Source: Candidatus Gastranaerophilales bacterium
GTDB taxonomy: Bacteria > Cyanobacteriota > Vampirovibrionia > Gastranaerophilales > Gastranaerophilaceae
DNA length: 64,000 bases
Assembly: GCA_017560095.1 (NCBI GenBank)
Contig: JAFYOU010000006.1
Span: forward strand, 1 to 64,000
Direction of reading: 5' to 3'
Below are positions 18,449 to 41,007 of this stretch, in pieces (the stretch's first letter is position 1; every line of letters starts with the position of its first letter). Both the position numbers and the translations under genes were made by a program. The notes under the pieces are model-generated. The model had not been told where the DNA came from, made no database searches, and was given only the letters and a program-made list of their open reading frames with translations.

Positions 18449-18465
18449 ATCTTTTGAACACATAT
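18449..18465 (+). repeat. 17-bp direct repeat, right copy, flanking hipBA
   Basis: Second copy of the 17-mer at 16738-16754, placed exactly at the stop codon of the WYL gene. The two copies bracket hipBA and its operators. Confidence 0.75.
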
Positions 18466-19427
18466 TAATAATTATCTAAATTTTCTTTTAGATAATTCTT
18501 ATAAGTTTCTTTTAAACTTTCTGGTTTATTAATCTTACAACCCTTGCCCCATTTAAAAATATGCCAGATAATTTCACGTTCTCCGCAAGCTTTAAAATTA
18601 ACTAATAAATTTCCATTCTTTTGCTTTTTAATAGTTTGTGTTGGATGGAAATTATAGTCCATTGCTTCTATTGCAAGCGACTTATCAAACTCCAATTCAA
18701 CATCTAAAATTTCACCTTGATAAACCCCAAAAGATCTATTTGCAAATTCTTGAAGATTAAAATTATGTTTTTTAAATTTAGCTTCTGTCATTTTTAGGTT
18801 TTTAAATTTATGCAAAGTATAAGTATAAATATCATCCCCTTTTGCTTTTTCGTGAGCTATTAAATATGTTTTTTCGCCATAAATTAACCCTAAAGGTTCT
18901 AATATTCTTTTTTTATTATGATAAATTCCAACTAATTTTTTACTTTGCGATAGAGCGTTTTTAACTTCTTCAAGCGTTTCAATATCAATTTTATACTGAG
19001 GGATTTGTTTTATTGCGTGTCCCTGAGTTTGCATTAAGAGTTTAATATTTTCTTCATTAGTTAAAGTGTTTTTGATATTAATCGCTTGTAATTTTTCAAT
19101 TGTTTTTCTTAATTGGATTTTTATTTCTTTATTTGTTGTTCTTTTAATTAAATTTTCAAGTCCGATCAATTCTTCTTTATCAAGAGTTATTAAAGAATTA
19201 ATTGAATAATTGATAAACCCCCAATGTTTTTGTGCGTCAGCCGTATCTATTTCATCAATCGATGGGAAAATATTTAATAAGCTATCTCTCATCCTCTCAG
19301 CCGTGCGACGAGAAACATTATATCTTTCCATAATATCTGAAATAGTAATTCCAAGACTTTTTGATTGCATAAAAATAGCTAAATCTAAAATGTCTGAAAC
19401 ACGAGAATATCTAGGTTTATCTTGCAT
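18465..19427 (-). CDS. WYL-domain transcriptional regulator (copy 1)
   Basis: 320-aa regulator: N-terminal winged helix (residues 5-55, KPRYSRVSDI then YNVSRRTAERMRDSL), a WYL domain at about 150-225 and a C-terminal WCX-like domain (FHPTQTIKKQ, GEREIIWHIFKWG). Such proteins sense nucleic acid or nucleotide ligands and often control defence genes. AAGGGAG precedes the ATG. It is divergent, with 71 bp between, from the membrane protein at 19499. It closely resembles the regulator at 30880 and the truncated one at 34310, showing duplication within the island. Confidence 0.88.
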   Translation of the reverse strand: MQDKPRYSRVSDILDLAIFMQSKSLGITISDIMERYNVSRRTAERMRDSLLNIFPSIDEIDTADAQKHWGFINYSINSLITLDKEELIGLENLIKRTTNKEIKIQLRKTIEKLQAINIKNTLTNEENIKLLMQTQGHAIKQIPQYKIDIETLEEVKNALSQSKKLVGIYHNKKRILEPLGLIYGEKTYLIAHEKAKGDDIYTYTLHKFKNLKMTEAKFKKHNFNLQEFANRSFGVYQGEILDVELEFDKSLAIEAMDYNFHPTQTIKKQKNGNLLVNFKACGEREIIWHIFKWGKGCKINKPESLKETYKNYLKENLDNY

Positions 19428-23262: not shown

Positions 23263-26200
23263 TTAACTTGTATAACCCAAAAATTCAGCAATCTTTGCTA
23301 TTGTTTTAGGAAAATATTTAGCTAAAAAATTAGCTCTATCTGCCAAATAATCATCATGTCCATAAGAAGTTAATAAAAGATTAGTTTCTGCTACAACTTC
23401 AGATAGGCCTGTATGGCCAGAGCCGCCTTGTTGATTAAAATATGAAATAATTTCTTGCATTGTTTTAGGGTAATTTGCTTCAAAATATCCCATTTCTTGG
23501 TTATAAATTTTTTGCAAATCTTGATTGTCTGAAATCCCATGCAAAAATCCGTCTTTAAGATGACCTACTTCATGAGCTGTAGTTGCCAAATTATTATATG
23601 AATTTTTAGGAGGAACACATAAAATTTCTAATCCTGCATGGGCAGAAGCACTTAAACAACCTACAAATTCTATATTTTTAATTTTGTCAATTTCCATCAG
23701 CATATCTGCAGGCATATTTTTGCATAATTCAAAGAAGGATTTTTCTACTTCTTCTTCTGAACCATATATTTTAACAAATTCTTCCCAGCCAATTTTTGTT
23801 TTTCCCTTCAAAGAAAATTTCGATACTTCTCCATTTTGGTCTTCAATGGTAATTGTTTGTGTTGCGTCGTCAAAAGATGAAGTATATTTTTTGCCATTTA
23901 TAATAGTTGTTGTTGACCCATCCGAATTTGTAAACCAGCTTCTATCTAAATTTAAAATTACACAGCCATTTTCATCGACGATGTTATATTGATAATTAGT
24001 TGATAAAACCTTTTTATTATTATCAACTGTTTGAATATATCTTCTTTGAATTTTATTATTTTCATGTAGAAAATTTTCAAAATATTCAACTTGACCATTA
24101 TTATTAGTTTTTATGCCAGCCAAAGTTTCGCCAGTTACCTCGTTGTTTTTAATCGCACTTATTAAATCGAAATTTTCTGGATAATCAGAGTAATTATATT
24201 TTATTACACTATATCCACCCTTCAACTCTTCTAGAGGCTTTCTATATAATACATAAGATGGCTTTCCTGAATTATCATTTACAATTTCTAACTGATAAGC
24301 ATCTTGTCCATATCTTTTGATTTCTATAATTCTGCTTGAGCCAACAACTTGTTCCCTGAATATATCTGATGCTATTTCTTCTGTTTGATATCTTTTTATT
24401 TTTCCACTATCAGTAATTTCAGTGCATTCAACAATGTTTCCATATTTTTTTGTGCCTGAAATTTTATATCCAGCATCATTTTGCAATTTAATTAATTCAA
24501 ATTGAAAATCAGTTTCTTTTAATAATGTATCGATTACTTCTTTTGAAAAATTATTTTTTGCTGCAATGCAAGCAATATCTGGACTCATTCCCTGTTGAAT
24601 TAAAGAAGATAACACTTTAGTCTGTTGAATTGAAAAACCTTGAATTGAACTATTAAAAGCCAAGTCAGAATCAACGTTTTGAGCAATTAAATTTTTAAAA
24701 ACCGCCAATTGTTCTTTCGAATAATCACCAGATTCTATTTTTGCAAATGCGGTTTCTTTGCGAACACCATTCTTAACTAAAGAATAATAAATATCACATT
24801 GTTCGCTACCATAGCTTTCAAGAATTCGCTTTGGAATATCGCTATAATCACATAATTCGTTTCTAGCTTTTACTAAAAAATCACATTGCTCCAATGTTAA
24901 ATTTTTACAAACAGCATAATCAATATCGATTTCAGCCATCTTTTTCTCAAGACAAATATTAAAAATTTCATTTTGTTCTTTTGTCCAAACTTCAGAAGAA
25001 TACATGGCTAAATCCATTGATTTTTGTGAACTAATTCCATTTTTAATACATTTAACAAAAGCTTCTTTTTCAACTTGAGTTTCAAATTGGTTTCTTGCAA
25101 TTTTGCGTGTTGCGAAAGTCGCATTTTGTTCACTTACCCCGTCTTCTATAAAATCAACAAATGTCGCTAAGTCATTTTCATTAAAATTATATGCTTTTCT
25201 GATGTTTAAGCCATTGATTTCAACTTGTTCGCCAAGTTTATTGGTATAAACTATTTTGGTAATATAATTTTCATCTTCACAAATACTTATGCTGTTATCA
25301 AATATTCTAGATGAAATATTTGTTGGCACTGCTTTATCTTCTTGCATTAAATATTCCGCAGATAAAACAGACTCATTAGATGCTAAATCAGCCCCCATTT
25401 CAATTTCTGTGTTTTTTGCGATTGTATCAACTGTTTCATTTGAGGACGCTTTATTAAATATTTTAGTTCCCAATTCATTGCCTGCTTTGCCAGCTAACTT
25501 CATTCCGCCACCAATAATTGGTGCCATAATTAAACCACCAACAAAACCTTGCACACCTGCTTTTAAAACATCTTCACCTTCTAAGCTAGCCCTTACCATA
25601 TTATCAGCTGTACCACCTAGGGCACCATCGGTTGCCATGCCAGCACCAAATGCTATAGCTCTTTGTTTTAGGGTTCCACCAATAATATCATCAGATTGAT
25701 TTAAAATTACATTTTTAGCAAATTGTTTAAAACCTTGTTTAACTCCTTGTTCAACTACTTCTTCAGCACCCTCTTTAATTATTTTTGAAGCAATAGTTTT
25801 TGTAACAGTATTACCTATACCATTTGTAACAGGACCTAATAGACCATTGATTCCGCCCGATGTAGTATCGTATAATAAATCTTTACTAGTATATTCTTTT
25901 CCAGCAACAAGAGCATCTCCTGCTTTAATTCCAACTTTACTAATTGCACCAGTTACACCTGCAGCAAATAATGCTCCAACTGGACCTAAAACCGCTGTCG
26001 CAGCACCAAAAACAACAATGGATAGCATGCCGGAAGCCATATCTGCAACAACATCAACTGCCATTTTTTGACCTTCTTGATAGCCACTGACAGCATGTTC
26101 CATTTCTTTAATTGAAATTAAGCCATTTTCATAATCTTCAATTGCTTGTTCTGCCTTAGATGAACTTGCACCAATTCCTGTTAAATTTTTAAAGCCGTCC

Positions 26201-26433
26201 CAAAGTTTCCCTAAAATTCCTTGTTCAGATTTAGTTTTTTCTAAATCTTGTTTTAGAGACGTTGTATCAATTATTTCATTTTCTTGATAATTTTGTGTAG
26301 TTCTTTGAAAAGTGTCAACTTGTGATTGAGTTGAAAAAATTGGATTATCAGCATTATTTTGAGCATATGTTTTTAATTTATATTGCTCATATGGTTTGAT
26401 AAAAATATTATTACTAGCTCTATTAACTGACAA
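23263..26433 (-). CDS. Large toxin-like protein with C-terminal zinc metallopeptidase domain
   Basis: 1056 aa. Residues 1-70 are polar; 125-340 are Gly/Ala-rich and hydrophobic (AAGVTGAISKVGIKAGDALV, GGLIMAPIIGGGMKLAG), like the membrane-active linkers of polymorphic toxins. The middle has repeated helical segments. The C-terminal domain has TTAHEVGH (HExxH) near 950 and EVVAETN near 1012, matching zinc ligands of anthrax-lethal-factor-type peptidases in exported toxins. No Sec signal is present. It starts with TTG at 26433 after GAGAG; no nearer Met exists. The gene sits inside a 34-bp direct repeat. Delivery route and target unknown. Confidence 0.75.
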   Translation of the reverse strand: MSVNRASNNIFIKPYEQYKLKTYAQNNADNPIFSTQSQVDTFQRTTQNYQENEIIDTTSLKQDLEKTKSEQGILGKLWDGFKNLTGIGASSSKAEQAIEDYENGLISIKEMEHAVSGYQEGQKMAVDVVADMASGMLSIVVFGAATAVLGPVGALFAAGVTGAISKVGIKAGDALVAGKEYTSKDLLYDTTSGGINGLLGPVTNGIGNTVTKTIASKIIKEGAEEVVEQGVKQGFKQFAKNVILNQSDDIIGGTLKQRAIAFGAGMATDGALGGTADNMVRASLEGEDVLKAGVQGFVGGLIMAPIIGGGMKLAGKAGNELGTKIFNKASSNETVDTIAKNTEIEMGADLASNESVLSAEYLMQEDKAVPTNISSRIFDNSISICEDENYITKIVYTNKLGEQVEINGLNIRKAYNFNENDLATFVDFIEDGVSEQNATFATRKIARNQFETQVEKEAFVKCIKNGISSQKSMDLAMYSSEVWTKEQNEIFNICLEKKMAEIDIDYAVCKNLTLEQCDFLVKARNELCDYSDIPKRILESYGSEQCDIYYSLVKNGVRKETAFAKIESGDYSKEQLAVFKNLIAQNVDSDLAFNSSIQGFSIQQTKVLSSLIQQGMSPDIACIAAKNNFSKEVIDTLLKETDFQFELIKLQNDAGYKISGTKKYGNIVECTEITDSGKIKRYQTEEIASDIFREQVVGSSRIIEIKRYGQDAYQLEIVNDNSGKPSYVLYRKPLEELKGGYSVIKYNYSDYPENFDLISAIKNNEVTGETLAGIKTNNNGQVEYFENFLHENNKIQRRYIQTVDNNKKVLSTNYQYNIVDENGCVILNLDRSWFTNSDGSTTTIINGKKYTSSFDDATQTITIEDQNGEVSKFSLKGKTKIGWEEFVKIYGSEEEVEKSFFELCKNMPADMLMEIDKIKNIEFVGCLSASAHAGLEILCVPPKNSYNNLATTAHEVGHLKDGFLHGISDNQDLQKIYNQEMGYFEANYPKTMQEIISYFNQQGGSGHTGLSEVVAETNLLLTSYGHDDYLADRANFLAKYFPKTIAKIAEFLGYTS

Positions 26434-29029: not shown

Positions 29030-29614
29030 TTAATTTATTTTATGCAATTTAGCATATTTAAATCCGCCATACCAACGGTTCCAGCTCCTATTGCTTGGAT
29101 GATAATTTTTTATTTTTTTTCCATTTTTAGGCACAATGTAATAATAATTCTTACCTGCTACCATTTTTAATTTAGGAAATTTTTCTTTGTATTTTTTTTC
29201 ATTAGCTTCACCCCAAGCTAAAACTATATCAGTATTTTTACCTATACGCTTATTAATATACTCAATACAGTTGCAACTCATATTAATTTCATCAATAGAC
29301 GGATTTCTCTCGGGAAAAATATTAACAACGCAAAAAGACGAAGCTTTTTCATCTTTTGCCAATTTTCTACAATTTGCAATAGTTGGGTCATCTTCATGTT
29401 CATCTGCTTTACTTGGATTAAACAAAATAAATAATAGGTTCTTACCATTTCCGCTTTCTAAACTTTCTTTGTAAAAATATCTGTATTTTGCTTTGTTTTT
29501 ACTAATCCTATTATATACGGCACTAGTTTTATCATATTCTTCTTTTGAAAAAACTGCATATCCATTTGCAAAATCTAATTCTTTTTTTACGGAATCTTGT
29601 ATCAAAATATCCAT
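29030..29614 (-). CDS. DUF1643 family protein (copy 1)
   Basis: 194 aa. It has the DUF1643 core LLFILFNPSKADEHEDDPTI near 60-80, followed by the conserved Cys (NCRKLA) and VVNIFPERNP, and a C-terminal VLAWGE plus HPS motif. The family is of unknown function, frequently found near phage and defence genes. AAGGAG precedes the ATG. A second, diverged member is at 40315-41007 beside the FtsZ-like genes. Confidence 0.8.
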   Translation of the reverse strand: MDILIQDSVKKELDFANGYAVFSKEEYDKTSAVYNRISKNKAKYRYFYKESLESGNGKNLLFILFNPSKADEHEDDPTIANCRKLAKDEKASSFCVVNIFPERNPSIDEINMSCNCIEYINKRIGKNTDIVLAWGEANEKKYKEKFPKLKMVAGKNYYYIVPKNGKKIKNYHPSNRSWNRWYGGFKYAKLHKIN

Positions 29615-30254: not shown

Positions 30255-30866
30255 ATGGACGATTTTCAAAAAAGTGTTTTTATAGAATATTATTTCAATT
30301 CTATTGATTTTATAGTAAGTGAAACAAGAGTTGATTTGATTATAGATATGTTTGATTCAATAGTTCAAGAGTTCGATTTAGAAAAAGAAACAAAAGAATT
30401 TAAAGAAACAAATTTCAATCCTTACAAAAATATTGAAGATAGGAAAATTGAATTAACAAAAGAGTTTTTTAAACAAGAATTAACTAAAATCAAAAAGACT
30501 TTAAAACCAAAACAAGCACAAAGCTATAAAGCATTATCAAAAATCAAAAAAGAAAATTGGCTTAATAATGACCAATTCAAAGTTTTGACTTATTTTGATT
30601 TTGCCGCTAAAAACTACGCATTTTTAAAATTAATTCAAGCAATAGATAACCCTATAAGGCAAGAGTTTTGTTTTATGCCAATGTTATTAAAAATGAAGAG
30701 TGAAAAAGTAATTAAAAGCTTTGATAAAATTTTTAGAAAAAAATTAATTCAAATAAAACCCCATGGTTCATCAAACTATATCGCATATTTTACTCCATTT
30801 GATAAATCAACAAAAGCTTATGAGGGTTTTGAAAATATTGCATATAAGTATAAGCAGGCAGTATAA
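30255..30866 (+). CDS. Hypothetical protein preceding WYL regulator copy 2
   Basis: 203-aa soluble, Lys- and Phe-rich, helical protein of unknown function. AAAGGAG is 8 nt before the ATG. Its N-terminus (FQKSVFIEYYFNSIDFI) loosely resembles that of the AAA protein at 31931 (FEKRMLVEYLDKHIENI), so the two may share a short interaction domain; this is weak. The stop lies 13 bp before the WYL start, so they are an operon. Confidence 0.6.
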   Translation: MDDFQKSVFIEYYFNSIDFIVSETRVDLIIDMFDSIVQEFDLEKETKEFKETNFNPYKNIEDRKIELTKEFFKQELTKIKKTLKPKQAQSYKALSKIKKENWLNNDQFKVLTYFDFAAKNYAFLKLIQAIDNPIRQEFCFMPMLLKMKSEKVIKSFDKIFRKKLIQIKPHGSSNYIAYFTPFDKSTKAYEGFENIAYKYKQAV

Positions 30867-30879
30867 TAATGGAGGAGTT

Positions 30880-31860
30880 ATGGAGCAAAATATGGAAGAA
30901 AAACCTCGCTATTCAAGAATAACAGATATTATTGATTTAATTATTCTTATGCAATCAAGATTTAATGGAATAACTTTGGCTGATATTCAAGAAAAATTCA
31001 ATGTTTCAAGAAGAACAGCAGAGCGAATGAGAGATAGCTTGATGAATATTCTACCTTCTGTTCAAGAACTAGAAACGGACGGCAGAATTAAGCGTTGGGG
31101 TTTTGTTAACTACTCAATGTGCGAAGTTATTAATTTTGCAAATAATGAAATCGCAATTTTAGAAAAAATTAAAAATAAAGCAGATGTTGTAACCCAAGCT
31201 GATTTAGCCAAAATAATTGATAAAATTAAGGCTTTACAAACAAGAAAAAATAATATTGATATTGAAAAAGAGGTTGAATATTTAATGCATTTTGAAGGAA
31301 GTGCTGTTAAACAATCTCCAAAGTATAAGCTAAATCTTGATAATGTTCAAAAAATTAGAAGTGCAATTAAAGAACATTTGAAATTAAAAGCAAAATACAA
31401 CGATAAAGAAAAACTGCTTTTACCATTAGGATTAATTTTTTCAAACAAAGTTTATCTAGTAGCAATTGAGGAAAACAAAGGCGATAGTCCATATCATTAT
31501 TTACTTCATAAATTCAGTGATGTTGAAGTTATATCTGAAAAATTTGAAAAAGAAGATTTTGATTTGCAAAATTTTGCTAATCAATCTTTTGGAATTTATC
31601 AAGGTGAAAGCTATAGTGTTAAGCTTGAATTTGATAAATCTTGCGCTCATGATGTTTTGAATTTTAACTTCCACCCAACTCAAAAAATTAAAGAACAAAA
31701 AAATGGTAATGTTTTAGTTGAATTTAAAGCAAGTGGCGAAAGAGAGATTTTATGGCATATTTTCACTTGGGGAGATAAAGTTAAAATTCTTGAACCTAAA
31801 GCTTTGAAGCTAAAGTATGTTGAGATGATGGAAAATTGCATTAAAGTACAAAATTCTTAA
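30880..31860 (+). CDS. WYL-domain transcriptional regulator (copy 2)
   Basis: 326-aa paralogue of the regulator at 18465: HTH EKPRYSRITDIIDL...FNVSRRTAERMRDSL, WYL domain around 150-235 and C-terminal FHPTQKIKEQ and GEREILWHIFTWG. I start at the ATG at 30880, which has a strong GGAGGAG and an N-terminus matching the paralogues, not at the earlier in-frame Met at 30763. It sits between a hypothetical gene and the tandem AAA ATPase, the usual place for a local regulator of a defence-like operon. Confidence 0.88.
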   Translation: MEQNMEEKPRYSRITDIIDLIILMQSRFNGITLADIQEKFNVSRRTAERMRDSLMNILPSVQELETDGRIKRWGFVNYSMCEVINFANNEIAILEKIKNKADVVTQADLAKIIDKIKALQTRKNNIDIEKEVEYLMHFEGSAVKQSPKYKLNLDNVQKIRSAIKEHLKLKAKYNDKEKLLLPLGLIFSNKVYLVAIEENKGDSPYHYLLHKFSDVEVISEKFEKEDFDLQNFANQSFGIYQGESYSVKLEFDKSCAHDVLNFNFHPTQKIKEQKNGNVLVEFKASGEREILWHIFTWGDKVKILEPKALKLKYVEMMENCIKVQNS

Positions 31861-31930: not shown

Positions 31931-32701
31931 ATGAAAAGTTTTGAAAAAAGAATGCTAGTTGAATATCTAGATAAACATATTGAAAATATTGATTTTGATT
32001 CTAATAACATTGATGACTTAATTTCAAGTATTATTTCAGATTTAAAAATTAAAAAAACAAAATTTAAGTTAAGTGAAAAAGGAGACTTATTACTCAATAC
32101 CTCAAGCGAATGCCATGATTTTAGAGTGCAACTCCATTGTGAAATTACAAAATTAAAGAAAAAATCTAAAAATAAGATAACTCCTTTTGAAGAAAAACTT
32201 AATGTAATCAAAAAAATTTATGCCCTAGAAGAACAAGATTATTTAATATTAATTTTTTATGTTTTAAAAGAATTAAGCACAACAATTCATCTTCTTTCAG
32301 AATGTTTATCTAGAGATTTTTTATCGTTTTATTTTAATTGCAGATATGGTTATAGAAGCCGTGATTTTGAACGCAACTTACAAAATTATGGAATTTTATT
32401 TTATGAAGGCTGTGAATACCAGCTCAATAAAAACATTTTAGACATTTTAACTTCATCAAGTTTTAATAATGAAGATAAAATTATAACAAAATTATTAGGC
32501 AAAAAAATAAAAAGTAAACTTAAACCTAAGGATTTCACTCATTTATCTCAAGAATTAAATAAAGCCACCAAGCTTTTAGAATCAGCTACTAAGTCAAAAC
32601 AAAAAGGGGTAAATATATTTCTTTATGGAGATGTTGGTTGCGGCAAAACTGAATTTGCAAAATTAATTGCAAATAGCGCAAAACAAATATGCACGAAGTA
32701 A
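31931..32701 (+). CDS. Tandem AAA ATPase, 5' part before a frameshift
   Basis: 256 codons. Residues 1-195 form a helical N-terminal region of unknown role; the end has a Walker A, GDVGCGKTEF near 233. The frame then stops at 32701, before a Walker B. The matching rest of the AAA domain begins in the -1 frame at about 32680, so this and the next entry were one gene. AAGGGAAGG precedes the ATG. Either a genuine disruption, a sequencing error in the A-rich stretch, or a programmed -1 slip on AAAA at 32677-32683. Confidence 0.75.
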   Translation: MKSFEKRMLVEYLDKHIENIDFDSNNIDDLISSIISDLKIKKTKFKLSEKGDLLLNTSSECHDFRVQLHCEITKLKKKSKNKITPFEEKLNVIKKIYALEEQDYLILIFYVLKELSTTIHLLSECLSRDFLSFYFNCRYGYRSRDFERNLQNYGILFYEGCEYQLNKNILDILTSSSFNNEDKIITKLLGKKIKSKLKPKDFTHLSQELNKATKLLESATKSKQKGVNIFLYGDVGCGKTEFAKLIANSAKQICTK

Positions 32702-33912
32702 TTACAGAAACAAAAGATTTTTGTGAAGCCAAAAGAAAAGATAGATTAAATAGCTTGCGCTCATTACAAAAAATCTTATCTAACACAAGCAATTCCTGTA
32801 TATTATTTGATGAAGCACAAGATGTTATGAATACTGGTTTTTCAATATTTGGTGATGCATCAAAAAGCTTTTTAAATAAAACTTTAGAAGAAAGCCCCGT
32901 TCCAATCATTTGGACAACAAATGATATTTATGAAGTTGACCCTGCATTTTTAAGAAGAATGACTTATGCAATTGAATTTAAAAAGCCAAACGATAAGATA
33001 AGATTAAATATTTGGAAGCAAATCTTAAAAGAAAACAAATTTGAAATAAGCGATAAGAAATTAATCAAGCTAAGTCAGGATTATGAAATAGCTCCCGCAT
33101 TAATTGAAAATGCCATTAAGTCAACTAAGATAATCAACGGAACAGAAGATGATTTTGAAGATTTTATTAAAAATGTTGAAAAAATTGTCTCTAAGAAAAA
33201 AAGAGTCAAAAAAGAAAACCCCCAAAAATTAGATAGCTACGATATTAATTGCGTTAACGCTGATATAGATATTTTGGATTTAACAGAAAAAATCAAAGAG
33301 TCAGGTAATTTAAATTTTTCTCTATGCCTTTATGGCGAACCAGGGACAGGTAAAAGCCAATACGCAAGATATCTAGCAGATTATCTTGGAATTGATGTTG
33401 TATTCAAAAGAGCTAGTGATATAAAAAGCAAGTGGGTTGGTGAAACCGAAAGAAATATAGCGAGTGCTTTTGAAGAAGCAAGAGATAAAAAAGCAATGCT
33501 AATTTTTGATGAAGCAGATAGCTTTTTGCAAAACCGAAATAATGCAAGAGCAAGTTGGGAAGTTTCGCAAGTGAATGAGATGTTAACTTGGATGGAATCG
33601 CATCCGTATCCTTTTATTTGCACAACAAACTTGATGAATTCAATAGACGAAGCAAGCTTAAGACGCTTCACTTTTAAAATTAGATTTGACTTTTTAAATA
33701 AAGAGCAAGCAAATTTAATGATGGAAAACTTTTTTGATATTGAAACAGACTTTGACCTTCAAGGCTTGACCCCAGGGGATTTTGCAACTGTTAAAAAGAA
33801 AGTTGATTTTTTAAAGATTAATTCCGAAAAAGAAATCATAAAAATGTTGCAAGATGAAGTTAAGGTTAAAAAATCAGATGCACTAAAAAAAGTTGTTGGC
33901 TTTAATAACTAA
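32689..33912 (+). CDS. Tandem AAA ATPase, 3' part after the frameshift
   Basis: 407 codons from the first Met. It opens with the remaining part of AAA domain 1 (Walker B CILFDEAQD near 38, sensor WTTND near 77, RR finger) and continues into a complete second AAA domain: Walker A YGEPGTGKSQYAR near 213, Walker B AMLIFDEADSF near 264, sensor ICTTN and RRFTFKIRF arginine finger. It ends with a helical lid. Relatives are proteasome/FtsH-like AAA remodelling ATPases. The ATG at 32689 has no ribosome binding site, favouring production by frameshift or loss of function. Confidence 0.78.
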   Translation: MHEVITETKDFCEAKRKDRLNSLRSLQKILSNTSNSCILFDEAQDVMNTGFSIFGDASKSFLNKTLEESPVPIIWTTNDIYEVDPAFLRRMTYAIEFKKPNDKIRLNIWKQILKENKFEISDKKLIKLSQDYEIAPALIENAIKSTKIINGTEDDFEDFIKNVEKIVSKKKRVKKENPQKLDSYDINCVNADIDILDLTEKIKESGNLNFSLCLYGEPGTGKSQYARYLADYLGIDVVFKRASDIKSKWVGETERNIASAFEEARDKKAMLIFDEADSFLQNRNNARASWEVSQVNEMLTWMESHPYPFICTTNLMNSIDEASLRRFTFKIRFDFLNKEQANLMMENFFDIETDFDLQGLTPGDFATVKKKVDFLKINSEKEIIKMLQDEVKVKKSDALKKVVGFNN

Positions 33913-34309: not shown

Positions 34310-34573
34310 ATGAATAAATTTGCCGATAAACCCCGCTATTCCAGAGTTAGTGACGCAATTGAATTAATGATTTGGATGTTGGAAACTCCTCAAGGAATTA
34401 CATTAAAACAAATTCAAGAAAGATTTAATGTTTCAAGAAGAACTGCCGAACGCTTAAGAAATAGCCTATTAAATGCCTTGCCACAGATAGATGAGCTAAA
34501 TTATTTTCAATCTAATGAAAAACATTGGGGCTTTGTTGATTATTCCATTCCTCAATTAGTTGTGAATAAATAA
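34310..34573 (+). CDS. WYL-family regulator reduced to its HTH (copy 3)
   Basis: 87 aa aligning with the first 75-80 residues of the two full WYL regulators (DKPRYSRVSDAIEL, FNVSRRTAERLRNSL, KHWGFVDYSI), then ending. The ligand-binding WYL and WCX domains are absent. The stop abuts the end of the convergent recombinase gene, so the truncation point coincides with a recombination boundary. It may be a pseudogene, or a stand-alone competitor for the same DNA sites. Probably leaderless: TATAAA lies 6 nt before the ATG. Confidence 0.7.
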   Translation: MNKFADKPRYSRVSDAIELMIWMLETPQGITLKQIQERFNVSRRTAERLRNSLLNALPQIDELNYFQSNEKHWGFVDYSIPQLVVNK

Positions 34574-35122
34574 TCAAAGTTCAAAATTAGAATAAGATAG
34601 CTCGATTTCTTCTTGCGAAATACCAATATATCGCAAAGTAATGCTTGGACTGGAATGATTTAAAATATTTTGCAAAAGAGCTACATCATTAAACTTTTTA
34701 TAATGATGATAGCCAAAAGTTTTTCTCATTGTATGCGTTCCAATTGCCCCAACATTAATCTTTGTTTTTTTAATTGCATCATTAATAAAGCGATAGACAA
34801 TACTTCTATGCAATCTTGAACCTTTATCCCCTAAAAACAATGGGCGATTTAATTCTTTAGCTTCTTTTAAATACTCTTCAATTAATTGCTTAAGCTTATT
34901 GTTTAATGGAAATTTTTTGTATTTTTTAGTCTTCTTTTCTCTAATCACAACATGGGTTTTATTTTTAACATCACCCACATTTAAACCCAAAATATCAGAA
35001 ACTCGAAGCCCAGTGTTAATTCCAAAAGCAAAAATCAACCTATCCCTTTTAGATGTGTTCTCAAGATATTTTTCAACAAGCTCAATATCTTCCTTTTTTC
35101 GTATCGGTTCAACATAGTTCAT
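34574..35122 (-). CDS. Tyrosine recombinase, catalytic domain only
   Basis: 182-aa integrase/Xer-type recombinase. Catalytic residues are visible: Arg in NTGLRVSDIL near 38, Lys in KKTKKYKKF near 64, HTMRKTFGYH near 130 (His and Arg), LNHSS near 153 (His) and the nucleophile in TLRYIGIS near 164. The N-terminal core-binding domain is missing, which is known in small recombinases of integrative elements and integron-like units. AAGGAG precedes the ATG. It is the only recombinase in the window and likely connected with mobility of this island. Confidence 0.88.
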   Translation of the reverse strand: MNYVEPIRKKEDIELVEKYLENTSKRDRLIFAFGINTGLRVSDILGLNVGDVKNKTHVVIREKKTKKYKKFPLNNKLKQLIEEYLKEAKELNRPLFLGDKGSRLHRSIVYRFINDAIKKTKINVGAIGTHTMRKTFGYHHYKKFNDVALLQNILNHSSPSITLRYIGISQEEIELSYSNFEL

Positions 35123-35203: not shown

Positions 35204-35294
35204 TATTCTTTTGACACAATTTTATCAAATTTAAAAAGCTTTCAAATCCACTATTCATTTGAACAACTCCATATTATTTAATATAGAGTTGAAA

Positions 35295-36599
35295 ATGGGT
35301 AATAAAAATTTAAAAGAAGCAAAAGAGGCAAAAAATGATGAATTTTATACAGAACTTTCTGAAATTCAAGCAGAAATGAATAATTATACTGATAAATTTA
35401 AAAATAAAGTTGTTTATTGCAATTGTGATGACCCTTTTGAAAGCAATTTTGTAAAATATTTTCTTATGAACTTCAATAGATTAGGGTTAAAAGAGCTTAT
35501 CGCAACAGGATATAAAACAAGCCCATTTAGAGGAACAGAACTCAATATCATGGATGCAGCATATTCTATTCGTATTACTAACACAAAAAAATATCTCGTT
35601 GGAACTCAATCAGACCTTGATATAAAAGGTGTAATGTATTTTTTAACGACTGAAAAAGATAAAATTACATCAAAACTTATTGGAAATTACGCACTAGATG
35701 AAAACAAGAATAAAATTCAAATAGCTGTAAAAGAAACATATACTAATAATGGTAAAGAAAAAAAACGAACAGTTAAACAAGATTTGTATTATGAAGCAGG
35801 AGACTTTAGAAGCGATATGAGTATTGCACTCTTAAAGCAATCCGATATTGTTGTAACAAATCCGCCTTTTTCTTTATTTAGAGAATATTTTAACCAACTA
35901 ATGTCATATAAAAAACAATTTATTATATTAGGCAATATAAGTGTTGTTACAAATATAGAGTTTTTCCCTTTTATTAAGAATAATATGGTATGGGCAGGAT
36001 GCGTTAGTGGTAGCAAAAAATATAGAGTGCCGGAAAATTATGCAGCTGAAAATCCTAATAAAGTTTATGTTGAAAATGGCAAAAAATATGCAAAATTTGG
36101 AAATACAATGTGGTTTACAAATATAGACCATGCCAAAAGGCATCAATTTTTGCCATTAAATCTTGGGTATAAGTATCATGGCCATGAGAAAATGTATCCA
36201 AAATATGATAATTATGATGCCATAGAAGTTGAAGAAATATCAAAAATACCTTATGATTACACAGGTGTAATGGGTGTTCCAAATTCATTTATTCACAAAT
36301 ACTGCCCTGAGCAATTTGATATTATTGGCATACCAACAGCAGCGTCAAATGAAGGCTCTTTGAATCTTAACAAGGACTATAAAACTTACATAGGATATAA
36401 GCAAGATGGTACTAGGACAGGTCGTACAGGAAGCACTTTCGGTGCCTGCCCTGTATTTGAACGAAACGACCACAAAAACATATATTATACAAATGGCAAA
36501 AGAACGGTGCAAGCAGGAAAATGTATGCGCATTTTTATAAAATTTAAAAAAGCATATATTTCGCAACATCCTGAATTATTTGGAAATACGGAGGAATAA
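35295..36599 (+). CDS. EcoRI-type adenine-specific DNA methyltransferase
   Basis: 434 aa. The N-terminus NKNLKEAKEAKNDEFYTELS matches the conserved start of EcoRI-family N6-adenine methyltransferases, and VVTNPPFSLF near 185-194 is the catalytic NPPF motif. I start at the ATG at 35295 because the family begins there; an upstream TTG at 35259 lacks support. It protects or marks DNA in a restriction-modification pair with the HNH gene that starts 3 bp after its stop. Codon use is less AT-biased than that of its neighbours, suggesting recent transfer. Confidence 0.88.
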   Translation: MGNKNLKEAKEAKNDEFYTELSEIQAEMNNYTDKFKNKVVYCNCDDPFESNFVKYFLMNFNRLGLKELIATGYKTSPFRGTELNIMDAAYSIRITNTKKYLVGTQSDLDIKGVMYFLTTEKDKITSKLIGNYALDENKNKIQIAVKETYTNNGKEKKRTVKQDLYYEAGDFRSDMSIALLKQSDIVVTNPPFSLFREYFNQLMSYKKQFIILGNISVVTNIEFFPFIKNNMVWAGCVSGSKKYRVPENYAAENPNKVYVENGKKYAKFGNTMWFTNIDHAKRHQFLPLNLGYKYHGHEKMYPKYDNYDAIEVEEISKIPYDYTGVMGVPNSFIHKYCPEQFDIIGIPTAASNEGSLNLNKDYKTYIGYKQDGTRTGRTGSTFGACPVFERNDHKNIYYTNGKRTVQAGKCMRIFIKFKKAYISQHPELFGNTEE

Positions 36600-36601
36600 A
36601 T

Positions 36602-37939
36602 ATGATTAAGATAGTTGACTATGGAAAAATAAAAGTAAGTGATTTAATTGAAGGCTTTATGGAAGATAACACAACAGGAGAAGTGACTTCCATGAATGGC
36701 AGACTTAATATCAGACCTGCATATCAAAGAGAATTTGTTTGGGATAAAGGTGCAGACAATGGCGGCAAAAAGCAAATTGATTTAATTGATTCTATCTTGA
36801 ATGGTTTTCCAATAAATGTAATGTATTTTGTTAAAACAGGTGTAAATCAAGACGGTGAAGACATGTACGAGGTTCTCGATGGGCAACAACGTATTATAAC
36901 AATGTGCCATTTTAGAGAAAACCGATTTGGGTTATCCGATGGAACTCAATATGATGGACTTACCGATAATGCCAAATTTAACAATTTCAATACTTTTACT
37001 GTTTATATATGTGAGGCAGATACTCTTGATGAAAAATTAGATTGGTTCCAACGAGTAAATACAGCAGGCGAACCTCTGTCAAAGCAAGAAATGCGTTCAG
37101 CTATTGCTTGCGGAGAAGGCACTACTCGTGCTAAAAAATATTTTGTTAACACAAGAGAAACTAATGGGACAAATGCTTATTCATACGATATTCAATCAGG
37201 CAGACCAGCAAAAGATTATATAAAAAAAGCATGGGACAGACAGGATGCATATGAACAAGTGATAACCTGGTTCATTAACAGCAAAAAAGATGATGACATC
37301 CTTTCATTTATGAAAAACAATCGTAATAATGTGACAAAAGCAGATGAAATGTTTGAATATTATAAAAATGTTATAAAATGGATAAAGAGATTATTTCCTA
37401 CTTATAACTCTGACATGAAAGGAGTTGATTGGGGATTTCTCTATAATAAATACCATAACAATATGACAATGACTTCAAAAATTCTCGAAGAACAGATTAA
37501 ATATCTTCGTCAAGATGTTGGTAATGGGGATAATGACCACTTAAAAACAACTAAAGGTATATATGAATACGTGCTTGCAATTGCAAACGGTGAAAATCCA
37601 AATGATGCCATCAAATATCTTGAACCACGGGTTTTTAGCGATAAAGACAAAAAGGCTCAATATGAACGACAACGACATGTTTGTCCACATTGCATGAAAA
37701 GATTTGAAGATGTTTCTTGGATGGTAGGAGACCATATCATACCGTATAATCCAATCCCTTCTGCTGGTCAAGAAAATGGCAAAACTACACCTGAAAATCT
37801 TCAAATGCTCTGTTATAGTTGCAATTTAAATAAAAGCAATCATCCATTTGATAAAAAAGCAGAAGAAAAACGACTTCAAGATTTATACAATATGTCAGAT
37901 GAAGAAATTGCCAACTTGCCAGAAGGTAATGTTTCATAA
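36602..37939 (+). CDS. DUF262 and HNH endonuclease-like protein
   Basis: 445 aa. Residues about 10-230 form a DUF262 domain with the nucleotide-binding DGQQR motif near 95 and YQREFVWD near 40; the C-terminus has an HNH nuclease: CPHC near 360, VGDHIIPY near 378 and CYSCNLNKSNHP near 408, with zinc-binding CxxC pairs. DUF262-HNH proteins include GmrSD-type modification-dependent nucleases. It is coupled to the methyltransferase (GAGG before ATG). It is probably the restriction partner, perhaps cutting DNA lacking or carrying the partner's mark. Confidence 0.85.
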   Translation: MIKIVDYGKIKVSDLIEGFMEDNTTGEVTSMNGRLNIRPAYQREFVWDKGADNGGKKQIDLIDSILNGFPINVMYFVKTGVNQDGEDMYEVLDGQQRIITMCHFRENRFGLSDGTQYDGLTDNAKFNNFNTFTVYICEADTLDEKLDWFQRVNTAGEPLSKQEMRSAIACGEGTTRAKKYFVNTRETNGTNAYSYDIQSGRPAKDYIKKAWDRQDAYEQVITWFINSKKDDDILSFMKNNRNNVTKADEMFEYYKNVIKWIKRLFPTYNSDMKGVDWGFLYNKYHNNMTMTSKILEEQIKYLRQDVGNGDNDHLKTTKGIYEYVLAIANGENPNDAIKYLEPRVFSDKDKKAQYERQRHVCPHCMKRFEDVSWMVGDHIIPYNPIPSAGQENGKTTPENLQMLCYSCNLNKSNHPFDKKAEEKRLQDLYNMSDEEIANLPEGNVS

Positions 37940-38066: not shown

Positions 38067-38210
38067 GATTAATGAAGGCGAAATTTATTCAAGAATTTAA
38101 AAAAGGTAATTTTTTGTTGCAATTTTTTGAAATACCCTCTGTTCATTTGCGATAGCACAAAATCGCAAACTGGCACCATGTTTTTTCTTATATAGTATAT
38201 CTATACCTAA

Positions 38211-38354
38211 CTGTTAAAATATGTATATTTTAAGGTATATTTTTCATATAAATATGCTTAAAATTTAAGGCAATTTTACTATCTGTTAAAATGTGGAATA
38301 AAAATAACATACCCTTTGTTAAAATGCGATTTTAATTTCTGCTAAAATGCGGAA
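38211..38354 (+). repeat. Four GTTAAAAT(G) direct repeats upstream of the first FtsZ-like gene
   Basis: GTTAAAATATG (38213), GTTAAAATGTGGAA (38285), GTTAAAATGCGAT (38318) and GCTAAAATGCGGAA (38341). All are in the same orientation with irregular spacing (72, 33, 23 bp). They resemble iteron-like protein binding sites and end 56 bp before the gene. Confidence 0.6.
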
Positions 38355-38409: not shown

Positions 38410-38901
38410 ATGAATAATTTAAAACCATTTTGTATAATTTCAATTGATGGAAGACTTAACAAATTTAGCAAAAATTTTCCTAAGCTAAATTCTTGTGTTT
38501 GTTTTTCAATTGATTCACATGAAAATTTTAATGAAACAGAATTAAAAGAAAAAACAAAAGATTACCACAACATTATTATTGTTTGTGGACTAGCAGGAGA
38601 AAGCGCAGGTAGAATTCTTTTGAATATCCTTGATATTTTAAAAGATAAAAATTGCCTTGTTGTTGCAAATACTCCTTTTGATTTTGAAGGTAAAAAGAGA
38701 AGAAAAATAGCAAATGAGATATTAGAAATCCTTGAAATTAAAAACATAAACAAGCTTATCTTCTATTCAAGAAGCTTTTTTAAAAAATGGAAAGAAGAAG
38801 ATTTGGATGGCTTTAAAAATATCTATAGCTTTGTTGATGTGCAACTTGTTGAAACGATTAACAAGGTAATTGAGGCGAATAGTTATAAATACCGAAAATA
38901 G
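38410..38901 (+). CDS. Degenerate FtsZ-like protein A
   Basis: 163 aa. Residues 55-120 match the middle of the FtsZ GTPase domain: NIIIVCGLAGESAGRIL is in the place of the strand plus GGGTGTG loop, and VVANTPFDFEGKKRRK copies FtsZ's VTKPFxFEGxxR. The glycine loop is replaced by GLAGESAG and the N-terminal nucleotide-binding strand is missing, so GTP binding is unlikely. It aligns without gaps with the better conserved protein at 39636. No Shine-Dalgarno is present. Possibly a partner or antagonist of an FtsZ-type polymer; function unknown. Confidence 0.6.
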   Translation: MNNLKPFCIISIDGRLNKFSKNFPKLNSCVCFSIDSHENFNETELKEKTKDYHNIIIVCGLAGESAGRILLNILDILKDKNCLVVANTPFDFEGKKRRKIANEILEILEIKNINKLIFYSRSFFKKWKEEDLDGFKNIYSFVDVQLVETINKVIEANSYKYRK

Positions 38902-39008
38902 TTATTCTCAAATATTTGAAACAGAGGGCGATATTGCAAAAGCAAGATTTCAAGAGATATTTAAGGGGGTGGTTTAAAAATATTTTAAACAAATTAAAAT
39001 CCGACATA

Positions 39009-39476
39009 TTACATTTTAGTCGTTTCATTAATTATATACATAAATTCGTCCCTACAAGCTTCAACAGCTTGTGCAAAAATAGCTCCTTTACCAAGCTTAT
39101 TTACAATGGCATCATTTTTTATAATTTCAACATTAGCTCGTTCGGTTAATAAATACTCCAATGTTTCAAGTGCATTATTTCTCTTTCTTTGTCCTTCAAA
39201 TTTAAAAGGAATATTTGTTACGATAACGCACTCTTTATTAATCAAATGCAAAGCATACTTTAAAAAAATAGATGCTTTTCTTGAACCCGCTTCTAAAGCA
39301 AAAACGATTTTTTCATACGTATTTGTTTTTATCAAAAATTCATCATCTGAAATGCTAGAACTTACATCTATTTCTATACAATCATAGTCCTTATTGTCAG
39401 AAATATTAAGTTTAATGCTGTCTTCAAAATCTTTAATTAATACAACACAATAAGTTTTTTGTGCTAATTTTGTCAT
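39009..39476 (-). CDS. Degenerate FtsZ-like protein B
   Basis: 155 aa, related to proteins A and C: TYEKIVFALEAGSRKASIFL in the position of the GTP loop and VIVTNIPFKFEGQRKRNNAL matching the PFxFEGxxR segment. The loop has lost its glycines entirely, so it cannot bind GTP in the FtsZ manner. AGAGAGG precedes the ATG. Convergent to A and divergent from C, with mirrored promoter elements between B and C, which suggests the two are controlled together. Confidence 0.6.
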   Translation of the reverse strand: MTKLAQKTYCVVLIKDFEDSIKLNISDNKDYDCIEIDVSSSISDDEFLIKTNTYEKIVFALEAGSRKASIFLKYALHLINKECVIVTNIPFKFEGQRKRNNALETLEYLLTERANVEIIKNDAIVNKLGKGAIFAQAVEACRDEFMYIINETTKM

Positions 39477-39524
39477 AATTTTACCTCTCTAACTAGTTTT
39501 TGCGAATTTGCATATTTTCATTTT

Positions 39525-39597
39525 ATTTCATTAATACGCCAAAAACGGGCGAATAAAAAATATTTAATAATGCACCCGTTTCTGACACGTATAAAGC
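39525..39597. promoter_or_regulatory. Mirrored promoter elements between FtsZ-like genes B and C
   Basis: Minus strand CCCGTTTTTGGCGTATTAAT (39525-39549) reads toward B; plus strand CCCGTTTCTGACACGTATAA (39575-39597) reads toward C. The two are near-identical, arranged as a back-to-back inverted repeat. Confidence 0.6.
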
Positions 39598-39635
39598 TTA
39601 TGATAAAAATATCGAGATTATATTAAAGGTGAACT

Positions 39636-40259
39636 ATGATAAAAAAGAAATTAAATTTCCAAGATAAATACACGCTTGTTAAAATTACAGTTGCAGGTAT
39701 TGGTGTTGGCGCTCAAAATGTTGTTGATTACTTATCATTAAATAATCAATCTGAAAACATAAGTTTCGCTGTTATTAACTCAGATAAAAATATTTTAGAA
39801 ACTGCAAAAACCAAAAATAAATTGTTAATACATGGCAAAGAAAAAACTTTTTACGGCTTAGGTTGTGGCGGAAATGTTCCTGTTGGAAAACAATATGCAG
39901 AGTTTTGCATTAATGAAATTGAAAATTTATTCAATGATACTGATGTTGCAATTCTTGTTTCTTGCTTTGGTGGAGGTTGTGGAACTGGCGCAACACCTGT
40001 TATTGCGCAAATGCTAAAAAATAAAGGCATTAAAACAATTGCAATAGTTTCTAAACCTTTTGATTATGAAGGCGAGCGCAGAAAAGAATGTACGGCATTG
40101 GGAATAGAAAAAATAAAAAATTTTGTAGATAAATTAATTCTTGTTGATAACCAAGATTTCATGACTACTCTTCCAGAAGACATAACATTAAAAGAAGGTT
40201 GGAATTATGCAAATAAAAAAATAGCAGAACTTTTTGAGAAAGAAATTGCTGAATTCTAA
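39636..40259 (+). CDS. Half-length FtsZ/tubulin-like GTPase-domain protein C
   Basis: 207 aa covering only the nucleotide-binding half of FtsZ. Visible: AGIGVGAQNVVDYL (residues 20-33, GTP loop T1), INSDKNIL (T2-like), GLGCGGNVPVGKQYAE (T3-like), FGGGCGTGATPVIAQ near 110 (tubulin signature GGGxGTG), and VSKPFDYEGERRK near 139. It ends about where helix H7 begins, so the T7 loop with the catalytic Asp and the whole C-terminal domain are absent. It may bind GTP but cannot complete the interface active site with itself. AAAGGTG is its ribosome binding site. Confidence 0.8.
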   Translation: MIKKKLNFQDKYTLVKITVAGIGVGAQNVVDYLSLNNQSENISFAVINSDKNILETAKTKNKLLIHGKEKTFYGLGCGGNVPVGKQYAEFCINEIENLFNDTDVAILVSCFGGGCGTGATPVIAQMLKNKGIKTIAIVSKPFDYEGERRKECTALGIEKIKNFVDKLILVDNQDFMTTLPEDITLKEGWNYANKKIAELFEKEIAEF

Positions 40260-40314: not shown

Positions 40315-41007
40315 CTATAATTTTTCAAATGAAACGTTTTCCAATTTTGGGTTTTTACAAAATTCATTAACATATTTTGCACACCTAGGGCTTGGATGAG
40401 TTGGTTGGCCTGTTTTTTTATTTATTCTATATGCAAAAAATTTAATATCTTTATTTTTTTTATCATCAATTGCGGTTTTAATTGCATTAAAATATTCTTC
40501 TTCAAGTTTATTCTTAGGGTCATTACCCCAAGCAATTATAACTTTTGAGATATTTTTTTTCGATAACTCATCAGCTAACTTAAAAATTGGATTACTAAGT
40601 TTTTCATATTCGAGTTTAATCAACTTAATAGCTTCTTGAATTTTAGGATGTCTTGTTGTAAATGTGTTATATATAACCATTCCGCCGATTTTTTCTTCTT
40701 GCTCTTTATTTAACGCATAGCAAATTTTTACACAATTTTTTAAAGTACCATCCAATTCCTTAGAATTTGCATGGCTTGGATTAAAAAGAATAAAAGCTAT
40801 TTTTTCCTTTTCCTTATCCCAAATTACTTCATAACTCAATCTATTTTTTGGGCATCTTTCTTTGTTATTTTCTGATACACACAATTTGTCATAATATTGA
40901 AAATTTTCAAATTCATAGTCATCATCACCAAATATAGGGGTTTTTATTGCATTTTCATTAACATGTTTTACAAAATCTTCAGTGCTTAAATTATATAATT
41001 CCTTCAT
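40315..41007 (-). CDS. DUF1643 family protein (copy 2)
   Basis: 230 aa. Core IAFILFNPSHANSKELDGTL near 70-90 with the following Cys (NCVKIC), VIYNTFTTRHP and VIIAWGND, matching the protein at 29030 in order and spacing. The C-terminus has QPTHPSPR, the HPS motif also seen in copy 1. It differs from copy 1 in lacking the DD of DDPT (LDGT instead). Convergent with FtsZ-like C. Function unknown. Confidence 0.75.
   Translation of the reverse strand: MKELYNLSTEDFVKHVNENAIKTPIFGDDDYEFENFQYYDKLCVSENNKERCPKNRLSYEVIWDKEKEKIAFILFNPSHANSKELDGTLKNCVKICYALNKEQEEKIGGMVIYNTFTTRHPKIQEAIKLIKLEYEKLSNPIFKLADELSKKNISKVIIAWGNDPKNKLEEEYFNAIKTAIDDKKNKDIKFFAYRINKKTGQPTHPSPRCAKYVNEFCKNPKLENVSFEKL

Follow-up and report, generated by a model that had tools for sequence, protein, structure and literature searches.

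Short FtsZ relatives on genomic islands of Gastranaerophilales: candidate filament caps that lack the T7 side

The window analysed here, meaning the whole stretch of 64,000 nucleotides under study, is taken from a Candidatus Gastranaerophilales bacterium (assembly GCA_017560095.1, contig JAFYOU010000006.1, positions 1 to 64,000 of the forward strand) and carries a cluster of three small genes, A, B and C, whose products are short relatives of FtsZ and are termed mini-FtsZs. All three belong to a family of island-borne FtsZs that consist of the N-terminal domain only (NTD-only), a point missed by an earlier note on this DNA. Judged from the aligned sequences, the mini-FtsZs keep the top, GTP-side interface of FtsZ, and the bottom, T7 interface is missing. 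The reading that is tentatively favoured is that they are FtsZ antagonists, acting as filament caps under the control of the islands that carry them.

Identity of proteins A, B and C

The three genes are as follows, with lengths in amino acids (aa).

38410-38901, + strand: mini-FtsZ A, 163 aa; NCBIfam TIGR00065 (ftsZ) E 2.6e-7; putative FtsZ N-terminal domain that lacks T3 and has no normal T1 or T4 loop; PFDFEGKKR kept
39009-39476, - strand: mini-FtsZ B, 155 aa; TIGR00065 E 3.1e-4; of the same kind as A and more divergent; PFKFEGQRK kept
39636-40259, + strand: mini-FtsZ C, 207 aa; TIGR00065 E 3.7e-48; FtsZ N-terminal domain with T1-T5 kept and a stop before T7

These coordinates and lengths agree exactly with the earlier note. 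All three open reading frames (ORFs) are intact, and B and C are transcribed divergently with 159 bp between them. The mirrored promoters that had been proposed for the cluster are not borne out, with 19 promoter-like matches against 14.2 +/- 3.7 in shuffled sequence. Upstream of A, at 38207-38349 (+ strand), there are four TGTTAAAATG-like boxes, of which two are exact and the others have a single mismatch; nothing is made of them because the whole window holds 25 matches against 24.9 expected and no such cluster is found upstream of the relative of A in genome G012.

By its profile matches, C is clearly an FtsZ homologue. It covers positions 12-197 of the 353 in TIGR00065, matches the Pfam Tubulin family (PF00091) with E 9.3e-28 and 98.2 bits, which is above the gathering score of 33 bits, and matches FtsZ chains in the PDB with E of about 4e-30. 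Its relatives include 217-aa proteins that are 50-51% identical to it, and the host genome's own ftsZ, located on another contig and encoding 403 aa, is 34% identical. A and B are assigned as remote, divergent FtsZ N-terminal domains on the strength of TIGR00065, profile-profile comparison and their mutual similarity (31% identity over 104 residues, E 3e-12). In PF00091, B scores 17.7 bits (E 0.0047), below the gathering score, and A has no match; the curated TIGR00065 cut-off of 295.2 bits is reached by none of the three (C 164.6, A 30.3, B 20.2 bits). Using hhalign against a five-sequence alignment of full-length and tailless FtsZs, A together with its G012 relative, which is 71% identical to it, gives a probability of 96.3 (E 1.5e-9), and B gives 84.6 (E 6.8e-6). 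The possibility that these proteins have no fold match to tubulin or FtsZ is contradicted as far as sequence profiles can tell.

The motif assignments of the earlier note hold for C, which contains GIGVGAQN in the T1 loop and GGGCGTG at the tubulin-type signature (GGGTGTG in canonical rows) and ends before T7. They hold as well for the loss of the GTP loops in A and B, which have neither the signature nor a normal T1 loop, and for the presence of PFxFEGxxR/K in all three. The proposed alignment of A and B with the second half of C has to be replaced: all three proteins are N-terminal domains, and A and B are without an internal part. Across the family, C-type proteins keep T1, T2, T3, T4 and T5, the 180-aa type mostly has GGGTSCG, and A, B and the proteins at loci L075 and L076 are without T3 and without a normal T4.

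Truncation, distribution and interface residues of the family

The comparison set is drawn from 40 stretches fetched mostly around short FtsZ-like frames, 33 of which form, together with the window, a mini-FtsZ set of 34 loci. At least one FtsZ relative shorter than 330 aa is present in 31 of these, with 39 proteins altogether; three loci without a match to the FtsZ profile (L097, L100 and L102) are nevertheless kept in the 34-locus denominators. Thirty-three of the relatives, found in 27 loci, are shorter than 230 aa (149-223 aa, one of them ended by a contig edge), and the other six are of middle length (278-322 aa). The truncation point is uniform: all 33 NTD-only proteins stop at or just before T7, with 26-40 residues after the T6 column, and T7 starts at residue 38 after that column in canonical rows.

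Six-frame pieces between stops were examined in the 1.5-kb 3' flanks of the 39 relatives, and those of A, B and C hold no remnant of the C-terminal domain. This domain is matched only by a true second gene at L077 (E 2.5e-32) and, weakly (E 0.13 and 0.49), in the flanks of two mid-length proteins that carry the FtsZ C-terminal domain themselves. The mini-FtsZs are under purifying selection where this is measurable: the ratio of nonsynonymous to synonymous substitution rates (dN/dS) is 0.119 between A and its G012 relative, at a dS of 1.44 that is near saturation, 0.133-0.22 in five pairs of 180-181-aa proteins and 0.144 in a 217-aa pair.

The earlier note had allowed for C being the decayed end of a normal ftsZ. 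A, B and C are not decayed ftsZ genes, because a 403-aa ftsZ exists elsewhere in the genome, the sequence downstream of the three genes holds no trace of a C-terminal domain and selection on A is purifying (dN/dS about 0.12). It is also very improbable that they are non-functional remains of a degraded island. The island in the window does contain a split AAA gene and a WYL fragment beside a recombinase, as such decay would leave; against this stand the intact ORFs, the low dN/dS of A, even with its near-saturated dS, and the presence of relatives in at least 12 genera (hand count).

A, B and a 217-aa relative of C were searched against 384 Gastranaerophilales-family genomes. NTD-only proteins shorter than 230 aa occur patchily, in at least 23 of the 384 genomes and in 12 of the 41 genera, also by hand count; the number of genomes is a lower bound because G252 and G120 are further candidates. 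A scan of a named genome collection with query A3 confirmed 14 loci, eight of which have titles that name Gastranaerophilales (L125, L127-L130, L133 and L134) or Candidatus Scatousia (L124). The other titles are uncultured bacterium (L122, L126, L131 and L132), Fusobacterium sp. CAG:439 (L123) and Patescibacteria (L135). A spread beyond the order was considered and rejected: L135 is a full-length FtsZ of 522 aa, and in searches of the class and phylum, the open frames among the matches listed outside the family are all at least 323 aa long.

An origin as a phage gene was likewise set aside. A tblastn search with C against 50,697 phage records returned 20 matches, and the seven inspected (H1, H2, H3, H5, H10, H13 and H14) all proved to be FtsZs of full length, 381-437 aa, from faecal contigs. 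Viral contigs scanned with C, A, A3 and A2 gave zero confirmed relatives, and a 180-aa relative has no match in the phage records. The same 180-aa protein has two plasmid matches, both annotated as FtsZ, and C matched 115 plasmid records.

In a quick maximum-likelihood tree (54 rows, 192 columns), the 15 canonical FtsZs form one clade with support of 96 in the SH-like approximate likelihood ratio test (SH-aLRT). Four mid-length proteins and L109 are nearest to this clade and the other NTD-only proteins are further out, with the places of several proteins unsure because of very long branches (2.46 for B).

Several longer or composite relatives were observed alongside the NTD-only proteins. Tailless FtsZ paralogs of 310 aa, possible intermediates between FtsZ and mini-FtsZs, are encoded at L080 (13419-14351, - strand), near AAA and UvrD genes, and at L101 (7576-8508, + strand), near a WYL gene. 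L077 (8819-10244, + strand) has an NTD-only gene of 198 aa overlapping that of a 278-aa partner, which has a divergent N-terminus and extends past T7 into the C-terminal domain. At L098 (216-1064, - strand), the N-terminal part of a mini-FtsZ is in frame with WG-like repeats, which may be a fusion or the outcome of a deletion between neighbouring genes arranged as in L107. Many genomes of genus g8 have two long-frame FtsZ matches (428 and 385 aa on contigs C10 and C2 of G035), as if two full-length FtsZs were kept, and G504, G508 and G526 (family f18, same phylum) have an extra FtsZ match with a 323-333-aa frame beside one of normal length.

Interface positions were numbered by alignment to a PDB chain that is presumably S. 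aureus FtsZ, and the two-residue offset also places D46 and Q48; by count along this chain, R143 is the last residue of PFxFEGxxR. In the 33 NTD-only proteins, the R143 position is R in 29, K in three and H in one, compared with R in 14 and K in one of the 15 canonical rows. D is found at the D46 position in 27 of the 33, and Q is kept at the Q48 position in seven of the 33 versus all 15 canonical rows. D46, Q48 and R143 have roles at the FtsZ-FtsZ interface, where R143 contacts D213 of the neighbouring subunit's T7 loop via a bridging water, and a Q48 to A mutant still assembles with lowered GTPase activity (PMC8936486). The bottom, T7 face is the growing end of the FtsZ filament, and mutations in the bottom interface are toxic and block division (PMC8936486).

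Gene neighbourhoods and proposed function

The neighbourhoods of the 34 loci were compared with those of 20 control stretches placed arbitrarily, mostly in the same genomes. Genes of the following families are found at more mini-FtsZ loci than controls: WYL (18 versus 1), DUF1643 (13 versus 0), AAA (12 versus 0), WG (13 versus 1), UvrD (12 versus 0), RtcB (9 versus 0) and serine recombinase (8 versus 0). To allow for relatedness among the loci and for the greater length of the window, the test was repeated at the level of lineages, using 16 representatives picked by the author from the tree and a 10-kb limit. Enrichment is then significant for WYL (8/16 versus 1/20, p 0.003), DUF1643 and AAA (each 8/16 versus 0/20, p 0.0004), and UvrD and RtcB (each 4/16 versus 0/20, p 0.03). 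It is not significant for WG, serine and tyrosine recombinases, HD, DUF2924, Xre and DnaB. At least one of WYL, DUF1643, AAA, UvrD, RtcB and HD is present in 13 of the 16 lineages and one of the 20 controls (p 3e-6).

Recurrent gene orders are RtcB-WYL-UvrD-mini-WG (L107), WYL-mini-UvrD (L103), mini-WYL-UvrD (L085), WYL-mini-DUF2924-WG (L083 and L088, followed in L088 by a recombinase) and WYL-c7-mini-dGTPase-UvrD-HsdM (L081). The WYL and mini-FtsZ genes are adjacent on one strand with gaps of 56-82 bp in L083, L088, L103, L085 and L095. A UvrD-PDDEXK protein was considered as an obligatory partner and rejected: with E 1e-100 as the limit, 73 of 146 family genomes have it, and the 20 UvrD loci picked because they had no mini-FtsZ on record include two with WYL, one with AAA and none with a mini-FtsZ. 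When C and a 180-aa relative were scanned against the anti-phage models of PADLOC 2.0.0, neither matched at E 0.001.

In the proposed mechanism, a WYL-family regulator of the island would turn the mini-FtsZs on during phage infection or DNA damage. The mini-FtsZ, with GTP in the C type or without it in the A and B types, would offer an FtsZ top face and use it to bind the terminal subunit at the growing end of a host FtsZ filament, where the bottom face with its T7 loop is exposed. A mini-FtsZ would be expected to cap this end because its top face is present and its own bottom face is absent, so that growth would stop, the Z-ring would fail and division would pause. Meanwhile, the helicase-nuclease, RtcB, restriction and other island genes could handle the damage or the phage.

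Capping is tentatively favoured because bottom-interface mutants are toxic, defence systems and WYL factors co-localise (PMC9122601) and the regulator DriD is known to drive a division inhibitor in response to damage. By analogy, having the FtsZ top face without the bottom one would make a protein equivalent to a bottom-interface mutant. Dominant negativity of an NTD-only FtsZ has been suggested as the likely cause of a biased library (PMC6050046). Among the three functions offered by the earlier note, poisoning or capping of host FtsZ is the best fit because the retained surface corresponds to the top interface and the missing one to the T7 interface.

The other two functions, formation of an atypical polymer and sensing of a phage tubulin, fare less well. 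A polymer is less likely because a canonical protofilament needs both faces, and the NTD-only proteins have no bottom face. A broader version, in which two or three mini-FtsZs, or one with a mid-length paralog, form a hetero-oligomer or a cytomotive polymer of their own, is quite improbable. It would account for the two or three members, mid-length ones included, in seven of 31 loci and for the 8-bp gene overlap in L077 and L090, with the 278-aa partner at L077 reaching profile position 286, past T7; the other 24 loci have a single member within the stretch fetched.

Sensing of a phage tubulin appears to fit less well than poisoning or capping. Sensing could instead take the form of a guard, in which the mini-FtsZ is an FtsZ-like bait and binding by an FtsZ-attacking phage protein sets off an effector encoded on the island (AAA, WG-repeat, dGTPase or nuclease). 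The defence-type neighbours (IetA-like AAA, dGTPase-like HD, HsdM and restriction genes) speak for a guard, as does the activation of CapRel-Ebc by phage Gp0.4 and FtsZ (PMC13423816), and several divergent copies side by side could widen detection. This reading is weakened because SulA, MciZ and Gp0.4, the last in a predicted complex, act on the synergy-loop (T7) side (PMC13423816), which is missing in the mini-FtsZs. Fusion to an effector was seen in none of the proteins save one joined to WG repeats (L098), and a guard role is considered unlikely.

A similarly small share of belief goes to the other main rival, a GTP-dependent switch or scaffold unrelated to FtsZ filaments, in which the domain now serves to bind GTP or a partner, for instance the WG-repeat or c7 protein encoded nearby. 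WG-repeat genes adjoin the mini-FtsZ genes in L087, L091, L096 and L107, L098 has the two fused, 26 of the 33 proteins carry a residue other than Q at the Q48 position, and the GTP loops are lost in A and B. The conserved R143 and D46 positions across very divergent members argue the other way, as they would be needless for a mere nucleotide switch, and the WG enrichment among lineages (4/16 versus 1/20, p 0.11) is not significant.

Several observations weigh against filament capping under island control. The top face of A and B may not dock as that of FtsZ does because their GTP loops are lost, and PFxFEG could be purely structural. The dN/dS is higher between C and a 217-aa protein (0.318 at dS 1.27) and in the pairs L084-L095 (0.286) and L087-L095 (0.434). 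The p-values are optimistic and the enrichment is partly circular because the gene families were first picked from the mini-FtsZ loci; the 16 lineages were self-chosen, three of the 34 loci lacked a confirmed FtsZ relative, and eight of the 16 lack a WYL gene inside the 10-kb limit. Similar neighbours also occur without a mini-FtsZ gene, as an AAA-WYL-UvrD row in L154 and as WYL and UvrD in L170, and in control L183 a WYL gene is next to those for DnaB and a reverse transcriptase. The window itself has no single operon because 4.5 and 6.5 kb separate A from the ends of the AAA and WYL genes upstream, the AAA gene is in two parts and B is opposed to A and C. Finally, the precedent DidA does not target FtsZ (PMC4211646).

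The closest known systems resemble the mini-FtsZs in some features and differ in others. Bacterial FtsZ (TIGR00065, PF00091) shares the N-terminal GTPase domain, the T1-T5 loops as found in C, and PFxFEGxxR; the mini-FtsZs differ in being without the T7 loop (NxDxxD) and the C-terminal domain and in being patchy and island-borne in genomes such as this one, which keeps a normal ftsZ. Chloroplast ARC3, a eukaryotic inhibitor of FtsZ assembly, combines an FtsZ-like domain with MORN repeats; the context of the mini-FtsZs has WG rather than MORN repeats, and ARC3 is not island-borne. The inhibitors SulA, MciZ and Gp0.4 are not known to be FtsZ homologues, and a mini-FtsZ would differ from them in mimicking the next FtsZ subunit itself. 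They are alike in the proposed site of action, the T7 or bottom side of FtsZ (PMC13423816), and SulA is SOS-induced (PMC4211646).

The Caulobacter DriD-DidA damage checkpoint offers a parallel in regulation, in that DriD is a WYL-domain regulator (PMC12340889) and drives a damage-induced division inhibitor; it differs in that DidA acts on FtsN with FtsW/FtsI rather than on FtsZ (PMC4211646). FtsZl1 and FtsZl2 (Makarova and Koonin 2010, PMC2875224) are likewise divergent FtsZ relatives found beside a conventional ftsZ. No T6-H7 elements could be recognised in FtsZl1, which differs from the mini-FtsZs in having further C-terminal structure and vWA, OmpA, kinase and GTPase genes as neighbours; FtsZl2 differs in keeping T7 and having a C-terminal region of about 300 aa. 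The available text of that paper describes neither as NTD-only or as located in WYL islands (PMC2875224). Among the mini-FtsZ neighbours with a family assignment, some having none, WYL, AAA, DUF1643, UvrD and RtcB are recurrent rather than the set of FtsZl1, and no mini-FtsZ has the extension of about 300 aa. A description of the mini-FtsZ family was not found in the titles and abstract openings searched, which is weak evidence of absence as subscription papers mostly fell outside the search.

The suggestion of a possible new system thus stands in part: the mini-FtsZs recur near a common gene set, are under purifying selection in the pairs measured and, for C and the 180-aa relative, match no PADLOC model. 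It is doubtful, but conceivable, that they represent a new class of immunity or checkpoint system in which FtsZ reduced to one interface provides island-borne, WYL-controlled caps, both GTP-binding and nucleotide-free, that arrest division in infection or damage. If so, NTD-only FtsZs would be ready tools for establishing which filament end grows and how capping acts in cells, and they would mark a route from a core cytoskeletal gene to an accessory role in defence or a checkpoint, in a gut lineage for which most knowledge comes from metagenome assemblies.

The island in the window

The island is bounded on one side by core-type genes (guaA, guaB, adenine deaminase and type II secretion F) and on the other by gene 43937. 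It contains a UvrD-PDDEXK gene, HipA, two WYL regulators and a WYL fragment, two DUF1643 genes, a split AAA gene, a recombinase, a type II restriction-modification pair and A-C. The features surrounding A, B and C are as follows.

13214-16300, - strand: UvrD helicase with nuclease, of the family that adjoins mini-FtsZs elsewhere; 45% identical to the L090 copy
18465-19427, - strand: WYL regulator with WYL and WCX domains; G012 has a WYL protein 92% identical to it near the A relative
29030-29614, - strand: second DUF1643 protein; PF07799 E 3.9e-19
30763-31860, + strand: HTH-WCX (WYL-family) transcription regulator; PF25583 WCX E 4.9e-12 and HTH_11
31931-33912, + strand: two-domain AAA ATPase gene (PF00004), split into overlapping ORFs in different frames (31931-32701 and 32689-33912)
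34310-34573, + strand: N-terminal fragment of a WYL-type regulator, HTH only (HTH_11 E 4.1e-5), in the WYL-family cluster; stops at the recombinase ORF
34574-35122, - strand: short tyrosine recombinase; PF00589 E 2.6e-27
35259-37939, + strand: type II restriction-modification pair; PADLOC MTase_II and REase_II
40315-41007, - strand: DUF1643 protein convergent with C; PF07799 E 1.8e-15; family recurrent near mini-FtsZs

The regulator at 30763-31860 falls in a cluster of WYL proteins that has 19 members from 17 loci, and the second part of the AAA gene is IetA-like (PADLOC IetA E 1.6e-32). The restriction-modification pair consists of an EcoRI-type methyltransferase (35259-36599; PF13651 E 9e-107) and a GmrSD_N/HNH nuclease (36602-37939; PF03235 and HNH). 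Two further genes were noted on the - strand, a HipA-like protein at 16814-18049, beside the WYL regulator, and a 1056-aa ORF at 23263-26433 that matched nothing in Pfam at 0.001 or in PADLOC at 1e-5.

Among the stretches compared, only that of G012 is collinear with the window; it contains the A relative, the WYL gene of window position 18465 and matches to genes 20698 (95%) and 43937 (94%), and C and B have no match in it. The collinear stretch is L075. A genus-wide hotspot was considered and rejected, as 20 congener stretches upstream of core gene w44490, four of them shorter than 7.3 kb, hold zero island genes. Seventeen of these 20 have only w44490, L199 (G003) has w43937 in addition, and L200 and L210 each contain a further match, at 30-31%, to w62107.

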